Of a stretch of DNA of 46,766 nucleotides, positions 4,910 through 20,758 are shown piece by piece; position 1 is the stretch's first letter; every line of letters begins with the position of its first letter. Source of the DNA: an uncultured archaeon (GTDB taxonomy: Archaea; Nanobdellota; Nanobdellia; Woesearchaeales; UBA583); NCBI GenBank assembly GCA_937138345.1, contig CAKZOW010000119.1, forward strand, positions 1-46,766, given 5' to 3'. The notes beneath the pieces were generated by a model. The model made no database searches and was not told the origin of the DNA. It worked only from the letters and a program-made list of their open reading frames with translations. A program made the translations under genes and the position numbers.

Positions 4910-5146
4910 TTAATAACCTAATGCTTTTAACATCCCCATAGCTAAATGCTGTAAGTAATGAAATACATCCCCATTCATAAAATCTATCTTAACTAAAGTA
5001 TTTTTAATTTGTGAATGGTAATCTTTTGCCTCAGCTATGTAATCCACTAACATCTCATAAGTAATACCATAATGCCCCTCAATTTGTAGCTCTGTACTTA
5101 ATGATGTTCCTTTCTCTGTAATTAAATTGATTAAATAAGTTTTCAT
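4910..5146 (-). CDS. Small hypothetical protein, first gene behind promoter module A
   Basis: 78 residues, mostly helical (MLVDYIAEAKDYHSQIKNTL; HYLQHLAMGMLKALGY). Not recognised. The ATG is preceded by AAAAGGCACAAATT, one of several starts with a GGCAC motif, and by promoter module A with TACATTTG at 5176-5183. The leader is about 30 nt. Short first genes right behind strong early promoters are often host-takeover factors, but this is only an inference. Confidence 0.7.
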   Translation of the reverse strand: MKTYLINLITEKGTSLSTELQIEGHYGITYEMLVDYIAEAKDYHSQIKNTLVKIDFMNGDVFHYLQHLAMGMLKALGY

Positions 5147-5175
5147 AATTTGTGCCTTTTGTTTGTTTGTATATT

Positions 5176-5256
5176 CAAATGTACTACAAAAAACTTTATA
5201 AAAAAACTTTTGAGCCTTTTTTATTTAAAAAATTCAATATTTTATTTTAAATATTA
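5176..5256 (-). promoter_or_regulatory. 81-bp repeated promoter module, copy A
   Basis: The -7 element TACATTTG is at 5176-5183. Upstream lies an AT-rich block almost identical to modules B (7490) and C (20068): AAAAGTTTTTTTATAA, preceded by AAAAAAGGCT and TATTGAATTTTTTAAATA. The similarity to copy B extends to about 5280 (shared AAAACTAATTTT on the plus strand). It drives the gene at 5146 and probably the methyltransferase and structural genes beyond. Confidence 0.75.
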
Positions 5257-5280
5257 TATATTATATATAAAACTAATTTT

Positions 5281-5712: not shown

Positions 5713-5893
5713 GTATTACTTTTTGCTCTGTATGTACTCTATTATGATACCTAAAGATAGTAAAACCAATCCAGCATTCAGTAGGCTTACAAATGCAGTT
5801 TCCTCCTCCTGCATAATGGTCTAAATCTCCATCATTGGTAGGATACATATCCATAGTAAGCCTATCTCTATCTTTTTTGGGCATCTTATCCAT
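5669..5893 (-). CDS. Small hypothetical protein
   Basis: 74 residues with a GGGNCICKPTECWIGFTIFRYH segment containing three cysteines, and a charged C-terminal helix. Not recognised. It overlaps the YopX gene before it by 8 nt and the resolvase after it by 44 nt, which places it in the same transcript. The density of overlaps supports a real gene. Confidence 0.6.
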   Translation of the reverse strand: MDKMPKKDRDRLTMDMYPTNDGDLDHYAGGGNCICKPTECWIGFTIFRYHNRVHTEQKVIHELREKNKGTINWN

Positions 5894-7301: not shown

Positions 7302-7460
7302 TTATTTAATGTCTTTTTTTGATACTGGCATGAATCTACCATTAGAACCTGAGAAATAAAAATACCTCAAACCTGCTTTAGTAATTTTTGCGTAAACATC
7401 AAAAGTTTTACCATTTGAGAAAGTTACTGTTTTGTTAGTTGTGTTCATTGTAGCATTCAT
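7302..7460 (-). CDS. 52-residue small protein, first gene behind promoter module B
   Basis: This short frame starts at ATG 7460 (MNATMNTTNKTVTFSNGKTF) and ends in GRFMPVSKKDIK with TAA at 7302-7304. The middle is FDVYAKITKAGLRYFYFSGSNG. It sits about 30 nt below the -7 element TACTTTTG of module B, fills an otherwise empty gap and has a plausible globular beta composition. A second ATG at 7448 is possible. Function unknown. Confidence 0.65.
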   Translation of the reverse strand: MNATMNTTNKTVTFSNGKTFDVYAKITKAGLRYFYFSGSNGRFMPVSKKDIK

Positions 7461-7489
7461 AATAATCTGTTTTTCTTTGTTTGTATATT

Positions 7490-7570
7490 CAAAAGTAATA
7501 TAAATTTTCTTATAAAAAAACTTTTGAGGCTTTTTTATTTAAAAAATTCAATATTTTATTTTAAACATTA
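7490..7570 (-). promoter_or_regulatory. 81-bp repeated promoter module, copy B
   Basis: The -7 element TACTTTTG is at 7490-7497, with the same conserved upstream block as copies A and C (CAAAAGTTTTTTTATAAG, TTGAATTTTTTAAATAAAAA). It lies just downstream of the large terminase gene and drives the small-gene, YopX and resolvase operon. Confidence 0.75.
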
Positions 7571-7586
7571 GATAAATTATTTAAAA

Positions 7587-9086
7587 CTAATTTTGATAAC
7601 TTACTCCTCCTTTAGCTGTTTTAATCATATACTGATGGATAGCATAGCATAATACATCTACCATATCATCATGAGTACCATTAGGAAATGAGGCACATTG
7701 GTCTATAAATTTTTTATTCCATCCTCCCTCTACCAATACTATCCTCTCACTAGCTAGGAATGGCTCGCTATTCTCTACTCTATTGAGTTTACCTAATGCT
7801 ACATCTTTGTTATTTACTTTCCTAGTATTGTATCCTCCATATTCGACTTTAGAGAGCATGGATTTAAGTGGATGCCCTGAGGCTTTCAATTCTATAAAAA
7901 CGCTACTCCTTTTGCTCCTATGATGCTCTTTAGTGTAAGATGGAAAGTATTTGAGCAACTCATACAGCTCTTTCCTAACTCCCTCACAATTGAAAATATA
8001 GAGTTTCTTATCAAATTTATTATAGTAGCAACTTAATAAACCTGTCTCATCATTTTCTGTTTTCTCAGTATATGCCCCATCAATAAAGTAATCAGTAGCT
8101 ACTGAATCAGGATTAAATGGTAGCTCCTTATGCTTAATAATCTGAAACCACTCCCTTTTAATCTTATTTCCATCCTGAGCTGATGGGCGTTGCTGGTCTA
8201 ATGATTGAAATCCTGTGGGATTTATACGCCTCCTCTTTCTGTATTTCTCAGCTGAATGCCTAGCCTCCCATAATGCCTCATCTATTTCTCTAGGGTCGTT
8301 AATATCTAATGCCTGCTCTATTGGCTTGGTTGCCTCCTTTAGAGCTGAAAATGCTAATATAGTCCACTCATCTGCCTCAGTTTTATCATAATGTTTGTTA
8401 TTTGGGTCTAGGATACGCCCAGCAATATCATCCTCATGCCATCTAGTAAATAGTAGTAATTGTTTTGAATCATTGTGCAACCTAGTTAAAAATACATCCT
8501 GATACCACTCCCAAACCTTATCTCTAATTGTAGGAGAGTTTGCCTCAGTCCTATCCTTAAATGGGTCATCTATAATACCAATATCTAAAGGAGTTCCTGT
8601 AAGAGCTGAGCGAACTCCTACACTCTTAAAAAATCCTCTATGCCCTACGGTTTCAAATATGTGCGTATTTCTCAGCTCCCCCTTTGCAGTCCAATCTCCT
8701 ACACTATTTAGCCTAGTATCAGGAAATAGCTCCTTATACTTTGGCTCATCTATGATATTTTGGCAATCTCTATTGAATCCAGCTGATAAATCCATTGCAT
8801 AGGATGCTACTCCAATTTTTAACTTTGGATTTTTCCCTAAGGCATAAGCTGGAAAACGCCTACTAGATAGCTCAGATTTTCCATGCTGAGGAGGCATAAA
8901 AATCATTAGTTTTTTTATATCCCCATCATATAATTTCTGTAAAGCATTACATACTATGACATGAAACCATTGAAAATCATAATCAGTCTTAGTGTATTGC
9001 ACAAATCTGCTAAATTGATTTTGTGCTTTGTATTTTAGTATCTCATCCTGCTCCCTGCTAATTTGTATTAAATCAGTTCTATTCAC
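7587..9086 (-). CDS. terL: Terminase large subunit (TerL)
   Basis: 499 residues. This is the ATPase and nuclease that packages phage DNA. Walker A is MPPQHGKS (residues 64-71). Walker B is DIGIIDDP (168-175). A coupling motif with FTRWHEDDIAGR is near 213-224. The C-terminal RNase H-like nuclease has D336 (FIDGAY), E399 (VFIEL) and the HDDMVD cluster at 472-477. The gene overlaps the small subunit by 8 nt. All motors and catalytic acids appear intact, and the length is normal for a phage TerL. Confidence 0.95.
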   Translation of the reverse strand: MNRTDLIQISREQDEILKYKAQNQFSRFVQYTKTDYDFQWFHVIVCNALQKLYDGDIKKLMIFMPPQHGKSELSSRRFPAYALGKNPKLKIGVASYAMDLSAGFNRDCQNIIDEPKYKELFPDTRLNSVGDWTAKGELRNTHIFETVGHRGFFKSVGVRSALTGTPLDIGIIDDPFKDRTEANSPTIRDKVWEWYQDVFLTRLHNDSKQLLLFTRWHEDDIAGRILDPNNKHYDKTEADEWTILAFSALKEATKPIEQALDINDPREIDEALWEARHSAEKYRKRRRINPTGFQSLDQQRPSAQDGNKIKREWFQIIKHKELPFNPDSVATDYFIDGAYTEKTENDETGLLSCYYNKFDKKLYIFNCEGVRKELYELLKYFPSYTKEHHRSKRSSVFIELKASGHPLKSMLSKVEYGGYNTRKVNNKDVALGKLNRVENSEPFLASERIVLVEGGWNKKFIDQCASFPNGTHDDMVDVLCYAIHQYMIKTAKGGVSYQN

Positions 9087-12403: not shown

Positions 12404-13051
12404 TTATACTTTTTTAAGTGGCTGAGCCTCTTTTTTAAATTCCAGCTTATTCTCTTTCATCAATACAGCTATCTCCTCCATAGCCTTTTTTCCTATGCCT
12501 TTTTTGACACTAAATTCTTTTTGAGTAAAAACAGTAACATCATCCAAAGTTATTATCTCCAGCTCTGATAGAGTGTTAAATAATTTGTTTGACAACCTGC
12601 CTGCATCAAATAGAGTAGAAACCTGCAAACCTGCCAATCTCTCTCTCTCATCAATTTCATCCTGAGACTTTAGAGCCTCAACTGTAAGCTCCAGCATTTG
12701 CCTAATATGTTTATCTCTTTTAGCTGAGAAAAACAGAGCCTCTATTACTGCTCCAGCATCTCCAATCATACCACCACTAAAATCTCCATCTATTGCTAAA
12801 TGGCTCATTGATGAGATGCCATATTTTTTAGCAATATCCATCAATTGCCTTTTAACCTTACCTGCCTCTCTATTGAAATTCTGTTTAGCTTTTTTCTTAT
12901 TCTTATCTGCTCCTCTCCTAGCACTTCTACCCTCTCCCTTTTTAGGGATTAATGTAGGCTCTTTTTTCATTGGCTCACAACCTTTATAGCCTCCCATTAT
13001 TTCCTTACTCAATTCACATCCTACACTTAATCCTTTATTTGATTCACTCAT
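12404..13051 (-). CDS. Protein with C-terminal RNA polymerase alpha-CTD-like domain
   Basis: 215 residues. The N-terminal 70 are basic and probably disordered (RSARRGADKNKKKAKQNF), then a helical middle. From about residue 150 the sequence parallels the C-terminal domain of RNA polymerase alpha: RLSNKLFNTLSELEI, LDDVTVF, and GIGKKAMEEIAVL. Against the E. coli domain, the positions of R265, N268, G296, K298, S299 and E302 read K, N, G, K, A and E, so most DNA-contact residues are kept. In alpha these bind AT-rich UP elements and regulators. A phage copy could redirect host polymerase or occupy such sites; that role is inference. A generic helix-hairpin-helix protein is the alternative. Confidence 0.7.
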   Translation of the reverse strand: MSESNKGLSVGCELSKEIMGGYKGCEPMKKEPTLIPKKGEGRSARRGADKNKKKAKQNFNREAGKVKRQLMDIAKKYGISSMSHLAIDGDFSGGMIGDAGAVIEALFFSAKRDKHIRQMLELTVEALKSQDEIDERERLAGLQVSTLFDAGRLSNKLFNTLSELEIITLDDVTVFTQKEFSVKKGIGKKAMEEIAVLMKENKLEFKKEAQPLKKV

Positions 13052-13843: not shown

Positions 13844-14428
13844 TTATAGATTTTCCCAAACTCCTAGAGTAGCATAGCAATCTCCTAAAGCTCTATGCTC
13901 ATCCTGATTTACTACTCCAAATTTCTCAGCCAATTCAGGTAATGAGTTACCTCCTTTCCCAAATTTATCTCTAGCTAAAATCAATGTATCAATCAGGAAA
14001 TCAAAAGTAAATCCATCTCCAAAACGGCTCATAAAATACTCTACCCACCTCTTATCAAATGATTTTACATTATGCCCTACAATTGTATCAATATCCCAAT
14101 TTTTCAGGATGTTTAAAATGGCAACTCCTACCTCCTCAGCCTCCAATCCTTTCTCCTCCATCTCATCCAAATCAATTCCATTAACCTGCATTGCACTCTC
14201 TTTATAAGATACAAACTCATTACCATCCTCTCCTATAAATTGTGGCTCTCTTTTGTATGGCTTTATCAATGTAGTAAACTCCTCCTCCACATTTAAGGAA
14301 CTATTTACTATCAATACTGCTATCTCACAAATCCCATTTTTTTCTTTACTGAAACCTCCTGTTTCAATATCAATGATGGCGTAATTTTTACTGCCCATTT
14401 CTTTTTTTTGTGCCTCTTTTTTTTGCAT
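13844..14428 (-). CDS. DnaQ-like DEDDh 3'-5' exonuclease
   Basis: 194 residues. The motifs of the DEDDh exonuclease family are intact: YAIIDIETGG (Asp and Glu of motif I), IVGHNVKSFDKRW (motif II), and HRALGDCYATLGVW (motif III His and Asp). These enzymes remove nucleotides from 3' ends, as in DNA polymerase III epsilon. No polymerase is encoded here, so it may act in host-nucleic-acid breakdown, end trimming or recombination. The ATG at 14398 (MGSKNY) is an equally good start. Confidence 0.85.
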   Translation of the reverse strand: MQKKEAQKKEMGSKNYAIIDIETGGFSKEKNGICEIAVLIVNSSLNVEEEFTTLIKPYKREPQFIGEDGNEFVSYKESAMQVNGIDLDEMEEKGLEAEEVGVAILNILKNWDIDTIVGHNVKSFDKRWVEYFMSRFGDGFTFDFLIDTLILARDKFGKGGNSLPELAEKFGVVNQDEHRALGDCYATLGVWENL

Positions 14429-15773: not shown

Positions 15774-15781
15774 CAAATGTA
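15774..15781 (-). promoter_or_regulatory. TAnnTTTG promoter for the 15753 operon
   Basis: The minus strand reads TACATTTG in the 63-bp gap after the ParB-like genes, 20 nt before the ATG at 15753, with very AT-rich DNA upstream. Confidence 0.6.
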
Positions 15782-19662: not shown

Positions 19663-20038
19663 AATCCTCTACTTTTATTGATTTTTCAATTAAATCCTCT
19701 AAATTTTTCTTTTGCTTTTTTGTTAGTGGCATCAACTCTCCTAAATATTCAACTTTATAAATATCTATCTCTACTACCTCTCCAATAACATCAGATGATG
19801 CTGGAGTATCTCTATCTCCAAAATCCATTTCCACAGTCTGCCTAGCACTATACTCAAAATTAATAGCCGTTTCCTCTCCTAAAATAGAATCATAAACTAA
19901 ATAGCAATCTACATCATAACAGCTATACTCTTTTATCCTACCATTGCCTCCCAGCTCTTTCCATTGCAGATAAAACTCCTCCTCAGCATTTCCAAAATGC
20001 TTTAGTAATTTGTTGAATTTTTTGTTAGTATTTTTCAT
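19655..20038 (-). CDS. Hypothetical acidic protein, first gene behind promoter module C
   Basis: 127 residues. It has a helical N-terminus, a beta-rich middle (YSCYDVDCYLVYDSILGEE, ARQTVEMDFGDRD) and a helical basic C-terminus. The ATG is preceded by AAAGGCACAA and by the -7 element at 20068-20075. Not recognised. Confidence 0.65.
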   Translation of the reverse strand: MKNTNKKFNKLLKHFGNAEEEFYLQWKELGGNGRIKEYSCYDVDCYLVYDSILGEETAINFEYSARQTVEMDFGDRDTPASSDVIGEVVEIDIYKVEYLGELMPLTKKQKKNLEDLIEKSIKVEDYE

Positions 20039-20067
20039 TTGTGCCTTTACTTTTTGTTTTCTTAATT

Positions 20068-20148
20068 CAAAAGTAACATAAAAAACTTTATAAAAAAACT
20101 TTTTAGGCTTTTTTATTTAAAAAATTCAATATTTTATTTTAAATATTG
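20068..20148 (-). promoter_or_regulatory. 81-bp repeated promoter module, copy C
   Basis: The -7 element TACTTTTG is at 20068-20075, followed upstream by the same block as modules A and B (AAAAAGTTTTTTTATAAAG, TTGAATTTTTTAAATAAAAA). From the GTTTTTTATAAAG block upstream, copies A and C differ at only a few positions. It drives the operon with the Mini-A-like gene. Confidence 0.75.
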
Positions 20149-20158
20149 AATATTATAT

Positions 20159-20758
20159 TTAATCCTTATTTTTTGAAAGGTTTTTTAAATAGACTTTATT
20201 AGCTATCTGATTCTTTACTCTTTCACTCTCATAATTTCTCTCCCCTTTCTCCTCATGGTACTTATGTTTCTCAGATTTTCTCATACTCCTAGCTCCTGCC
20301 ACATTGCATCTACTATCAAAATACTGCCTAAACCATCCTAGTATTTTATCCATAGATAAACTCTCATAAAGCTCTCCATAAGCTCCAGTCTTAGCATTGG
20401 TAAAAACTACTTTAATATCAGCTATGGTAATATTTTTAAAATCAGAAACTATAAAAAAGGCTATCTCATCAATCTGATGCTCCATTAGTTGCCTCTTTAA
20501 ATTTATTGATTCATTCAAATCAATAACCCAAATTTTAATATAAGCCTCAATTTGTTTCTCTGAGTAAGTTCTAACCATCTCTCCTAATGATGGAGTATTA
20601 GTATCTAATGCCTGTGCAACCGTTCTAACACTCCTCAGCTCCCTTTTTAGGGTTGCTGGGTTGTAAATCTCTAAGAACGCCTCTAAGGTACTGGGTAGAT
20701 ACTTTACCTTTGTTATCTCCAGCTTTCCCTCCTGTATTGCTATTTCCTTTTTTGCCAT
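20159..20758 (-). CDS. Replication-associated conserved phage protein (DUF6633-like)
   Basis: 199 residues. The C-terminal half has ITIADIKVVFTNAKTGAYGE, LYESLSMDKILGWFRQYFDS, a pattern found in Bacteroidota phage proteins next to replication initiators. The first 44 codons are overprinted by the end of the upstream gene (134-nt overlap, different frame). The next in-frame Met is at residue 61, so the overlap cannot be removed without losing much of the N-terminus. A helicase-loader role is possible but not shown. Confidence 0.65.
   Translation of the reverse strand: MAKKEIAIQEGKLEITKVKYLPSTLEAFLEIYNPATLKRELRSVRTVAQALDTNTPSLGEMVRTYSEKQIEAYIKIWVIDLNESINLKRQLMEHQIDEIAFFIVSDFKNITIADIKVVFTNAKTGAYGELYESLSMDKILGWFRQYFDSRCNVAGARSMRKSEKHKYHEEKGERNYESERVKNQIANKVYLKNLSKNKD

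Follow-up and report, generated by a model that had tools for sequence, protein, structure and literature searches.

A divergent alpha-CTD-like domain at the C-terminus of an accessory protein from a Flavobacterium-type siphophage

As judged by profile and residue comparison, the last ~75 residues of a 215-aa phage protein are a divergent alpha-CTD-like domain whose similarity to its relatives goes beyond chance, and the profile matches place the ancestry of this tail in the bacterial RNA polymerase alpha-CTD. The reading that we favor, with about even confidence, is that an accessory protein of a Bacteroidota siphophage has co-opted a polymerase-derived domain as its DNA-binding tail, tethering being a likelier role for the domain than competition at UP elements. 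The protein is encoded on contig CAKZOW010000119.1 of assembly GCA_937138345.1, which was analyzed in its entirety (46,766 nt; hereafter, the window). Its open reading frame starts with ATG and lies within a run of minus-strand genes (Table 1).

Table 1. Positions in the window of the 215-aa protein, its parts, a neighboring gene, and the promoter-like elements
Feature	Position	Strand	Basis or detail
215-aa phage protein with C-terminal alpha-CTD-like domain	12404..13051	minus	ORF call, Pfam and NCBIfam profiles
Alpha-CTD-like domain, residues 137-208	12428..12643	minus	Profiles, residue alignment, AlphaFold model, shuffle test
Predicted helical phage core, residues 55-136	12644..12889	minus	~28-33% identity to L031:8309-8770
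N-terminal tail, residues 1-58	12878..13051	minus	Net charge ~ +8; low model confidence
DnaQ-like exonuclease gene, neighbor of the 215-aa protein	13844..14428	minus	Profile match
-7 box TACATTTG; for the gene run containing the 215-aa protein, the closest promoter-like site on the upstream side	15774..15781	minus	
AT-rich module, copy 1	5110..5280	minus	-7 box TACATTTG at 5176-5183
AT-rich module, copy 2	7424..7594	minus	-7 box TACTTTTG at 7490-7497
AT-rich module, copy 3	20002..20172	minus	-7 box TACTTTTG at 20068-20075

A phage contig in an archaeal assembly

The assembly itself is archaeal, as its contig C148 carries an archaeal-type cluster of ribosomal protein and Rpo3 genes. The window is a Flavobacterium-type siphophage: 23 of its ORFs match Flavobacterium phage 1/32, including those for portal, capsid, tail, and terminase, and the structural genes of the two are collinear, in agreement with the phage setting proposed in the initial annotation. 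The terminase is 63% identical to that of phage 1/32 and has relatives in that phage and in tant8-1. Synteny with phage 1/32, together with promoters of the Bacteroidota type (see below), indicates that the phage contig was most likely misbinned with the archaeal genome. On the same grounds (the 23 matching ORFs and the sigma-A type of the promoters) we rejected the reading of the window as an archaeal virus; the host most likely belongs to Bacteroidota, and probably to Flavobacteriia. The alpha-CTD model gave few and weak matches in 40 relatives of the archaeal assembly, and Rfam gave no match in the window.

Evidence for alpha-CTD ancestry

The resemblance of the last ~60 residues to the alpha-CTD, on which the initial annotation was built, held up in profile searches. 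The NCBIfam RpoA model NF003519 aligned residues 129-209 to its positions 241-318 of 320 (E 3.9e-7), and Pfam RNA_pol_A_CTD (PF03118) matched residues 153-199 at E 6.9e-5; against the PF03118 cut-off of 23.8 bits, the protein scored 22.9 bits in the ORF scan and 23.9 bits, above the cut-off, in the genome search. A custom HMM built from 57 alpha-CTD-like sequences gave the protein 25.8 bits, compared with 11.5 bits for the top of 2000 shuffles and 3.5 bits for the second-best among the 73 window ORFs. Further, the protein found 10 matches in 297 Bacteroidota genomes, aligned at its residues 104-208, and every one of these lies in an RpoA-sized open frame (328-344 aa). A sequence search of the PDB gave six matches, the best five of them alpha subunits, at weak E-values of 0.1-0.6. 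The matches beat the shuffles, yet the PDB hits are weak; the similarity of the domain thus exceeds chance, but the domain is divergent. Single-sequence searches with the whole protein against viral contigs, genome contigs, and phages returned zero matches.

A generic HhH origin of the tail was rejected because the RpoA models were its sole matches in Pfam and NCBIfam, and no HhH family matched the 215-aa protein at E<1 in the Pfam scan.

A further search again found only contig L163. A 134-aa viral protein on that contig (L163:4776-5180) has a divergent alpha-CTD that retains R265, and its 'LYDDGLIS' aligns where the window protein reads 'LFDAGRLS'.

Structure prediction, which had been suggested as a check, gave a compatible picture. 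An AlphaFold model of the C-terminal 82 residues, made with 20 alpha-CTD relatives, reached pLDDT 74, and its ten best matches among solved structures were all alpha subunits (TMq 0.62-0.79, with weak E-values, 0.01 at best), Spx-bound and AT-rich-DNA-bound forms of the alpha-CTD among them. Several of the best matches among viral predicted structures come from phages and bear names of alpha-CTD proteins. The model supports an alpha-CTD fold for the tail, but because its alignment contains alpha-CTDs it is partly circular and demonstrates compatibility rather than independent proof. Profile and fold together place the domain in PF03118, the fold being taken from this homology-informed model. 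A full-length AlphaFold model from a two-sequence alignment was unusable, with a pLDDT of 38.5.

Residues that contact DNA and sigma

We compared the tail with 57 sequences (27 RpoA and 30 viral alpha-CTDs), using E. coli numbering. Residues K156, N159, G187, K189, and E193 of the protein are equivalent to R265, N268, G296, K298, and E302, and the string K-N-G-K-E had therefore been read correctly at these five positions. The broader claim that most DNA-contact residues are kept rested on a favorable choice of positions: over the minor-groove set R265, N268, C269, N294, G296, K298, S299, and E302, the protein has K, N, T, G, G, K, A, and E, so that only four of the eight are identical and R265K, C269T, N294G, and S299A are changed. 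Arginine occupies position 265 in all 57 comparators, and N294 is present in 56 of them. Glycine and lysine at 296 and 298 are generic to the HhH hairpin motif, which leaves N268 and E302 as the only alpha-specific contacts unchanged; the GxGKK hairpin is the best-kept part of the tail. At D259 and E261, the acidic positions of E. coli alpha that face sigma region 4, the protein has A150 and R152, and the acidic contacts to sigma are thus not preserved.

Pfam and NCBIfam gave no match to an alpha N-terminal domain in the protein, so that it does not qualify as an RpoA capable of assembly, and the Pfam scan detected neither a sigma-4 nor an HTH domain. What the window encodes is a phage protein that has an alpha-CTD and lacks the RpoA N-terminal domain (NTD).

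AT-rich promoter modules

Three AT-rich module copies of ~171 bases each share an upstream AT-rich block and a TANNTTTG box. Of the 16 gaps between genes that measure 40 bases or more, nine have this -7 box on the gene strand, where 1.8 would be expected; the opposite strand had one, and none of 2000 resampled sets reached nine. It corresponds to the sigma-A box of Bacteroidetes/Flavobacterium (PMC9723704, PMC6847099). A pattern search for TTG at the expected -33 spacing in the modules gave none. The boxes bear out the earlier suggestion that the AT-rich repeats are promoters and, as far as sequence can tell, support their use by the host sigma-A polymerase.

Similar modules are present in related phages. 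In phage 1/32, four A-tract promoter modules (at 5875, 8635, 33953, and 41652) resemble those of the window and end in TANNTTTG, tant8-1 has two repeated AT-rich modules (5048 and 8286), and the related contigs G049 and G044 have two and three similar ones, respectively; PF03118 had no match anywhere in these four records. Because comparable modules exist in relatives that do not have the domain, the proposed link between protein and modules fails the test of co-occurrence in related phages, and the modules do not appear to need the 215-aa protein.

A relative of the front half without the tail

The front half of the protein matches a 153-aa protein at L031:8309-8770 (IMG/VR contig 3300021504_000004) at 28% identity, the sole relative found. 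That protein has no CTD, PF03118 is absent from the entire L031 record, and the neighborhood is similar, with an exonuclease and DUF4494 pair adjoining the relative. Since this relative has the front domain but not the tail, the tail would have been gained in the lineage of the window or lost in the other. An alignment-based search with the N-terminal core returned only the same contig, tblastn with the L031 protein gave no phage match, and the core alignment drew nothing but chance-level thioredoxin matches from the PDB; among these searches, the N-terminal domain had no relative of known function. The exonuclease gene of this contig (L031:6676-7123) is broken up over two frames that overlap, perhaps through a frameshift or a sequencing error.

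What the tail may do

In the reading that we favor, a phage helical domain carries an alpha-CTD-derived domain at its C-terminus, and this domain most likely is a stand-alone DNA-binding tail. Judging from the residues, it would bind with what remains (the GxGKK hairpin, Asn268, and Glu302), having lost Asn294, the arginine that contacts the minor groove, and the acidic residues that contact sigma. The tail would probably bring the N-terminal domain to DNA in early or middle infection, as part of a gene run in which an exonuclease is encoded as well, and the module promoters would be served by the host sigma-A polymerase without any need of the 215-aa protein. Against this reading, a lysine might still fit into a narrow minor groove, and real promoter modules share the genome, so that a role in transcription is conceivable.

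It is possible, although unlikely, that the tail has no transcription role and works as a generic HhH-type DNA-binding element in replication, recombination, or packaging. The good preservation of the GxGKK hairpin is in keeping with such a role, as are the exonuclease neighbor and the ParB-like, DnaD-like, and terminase genes in the same region; however, the tail matches RpoA models only and no HhH families, and a direct functional link to replication, recombination, or packaging genes was not found.

We consider it quite doubtful that the protein is a trans-acting mimic of the alpha-CTD that redirects host polymerase, either by sitting on UP-like elements in phage promoters or by displacing the host alpha-CTD at the host's own promoters. 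The ancestry of the tail and the AT-rich stretches that precede real -7 boxes would suit such a mimic, and phages are known to target the alpha-CTD (T4 Alt/ModA, PMC2988021; Rac, PMC7552054), but R265K, N294G, and the loss of the D259/E261-type acidic patch argue against it, as do the lack of an alpha NTD or sigma-4 domain with which to reach polymerase and the presence of comparable modules in relatives that lack the protein. Our confidence is very low that a free-standing phage alpha-CTD with Lys for Arg265 binds AT-rich upstream DNA of phage promoters and diverts host polymerase toward phage genes; if this were true, the lysine would escape Arg265-directed modification. The compact takeover system that the initial annotation had seen in the protein and the modules finds no support, given the loss of R265 and of the sigma-facing acidic residues, the absence of an alpha NTD, and the occurrence of modules without the protein. 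Finally, it is highly improbable that the tail serves as a decoy, using the protein-binding face of the alpha-CTD to capture host activators or the sigma factor instead of DNA: factors such as Spx dock on the alpha-CTD, and the Spx complexes 3gfk and 1z3e are among the top structural matches of the CTD model, but the sigma-4 contact residues are changed and no host partner is known.

Comparison with known systems

The tail shares with the CTD of RpoA (PF03118; Bacteroidota RpoA) the fold, the helix order, the GxGKK hairpin, Asn268, Glu302, a similar linker, and the C-terminal 'LEF' end. It differs from RpoA in the absence of the alpha NTD, in the four substitutions of the minor-groove set, and in the loss of the acidic residues that contact sigma.

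An IMG/VR scan found 34 loci with alpha-CTD-like domains, although some of the contigs may represent integrated elements and not phages. When 27 full viral proteins were scanned, PF03118 was present in all 27 and Sigma70_r4 in 15, and RpoA NTD families were absent among the 18 families listed for them. Such proteins are encoded, for example, at L128:2395-3393 and L141:4365-5231 and by others in the set L141-L174, some with an HTH in front. The fusions of sigma-70 region 4 to an alpha-CTD (e.g., those of L141 and L128) and the window protein alike are viral proteins that end in an alpha-CTD module, whereas the window protein has neither sigma-4 nor HTH. We found no description of this class of viral alpha-CTD proteins, with or without sigma-70 region 4, in the literature searched, an absence that is no proof of novelty. 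The phage alpha-CTD domains of L126, L143, and L152 also match a stretch of the model of the BREX kinase PglW (NF033442), hinting at an alpha-CTD-like region in PglW.

Proteins of the same kind are already annotated as alpha or alpha-CTD proteins in Bacillus phage Goe8 (Goe8_c00050), Rhodococcus phage Finch, and Mycobacterium phage Mithril. The Goe8 protein (210 aa) lies near one genome end and has a strong alpha-CTD match (E 4e-22), with no match to the RpoA NTD in a profile scan; its N-terminal part has no similarity to the window protein. It and the 30 aligned viral domains keep Arg265, whereas the window protein has Lys, and viral alpha-CTD proteins that keep this arginine would be the better place to test for phage-made promoter-recognition modules.

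Other phages act on the alpha-CTD step by a different route, modifying the host alpha or causing its cleavage: T4 Alt and ModA modify Arg265 (PMC2988021), and the Rac protein of phiKMV-like phages cleaves the alpha linker (PMC7552054). We claim no homology of the window protein to any of these. Rather than a demonstrated takeover system, the window protein is a modest variant of known phage alpha-CTD proteins, in which an accessory protein would have taken on the alpha-CTD as a module, one gained or lost between related phages.
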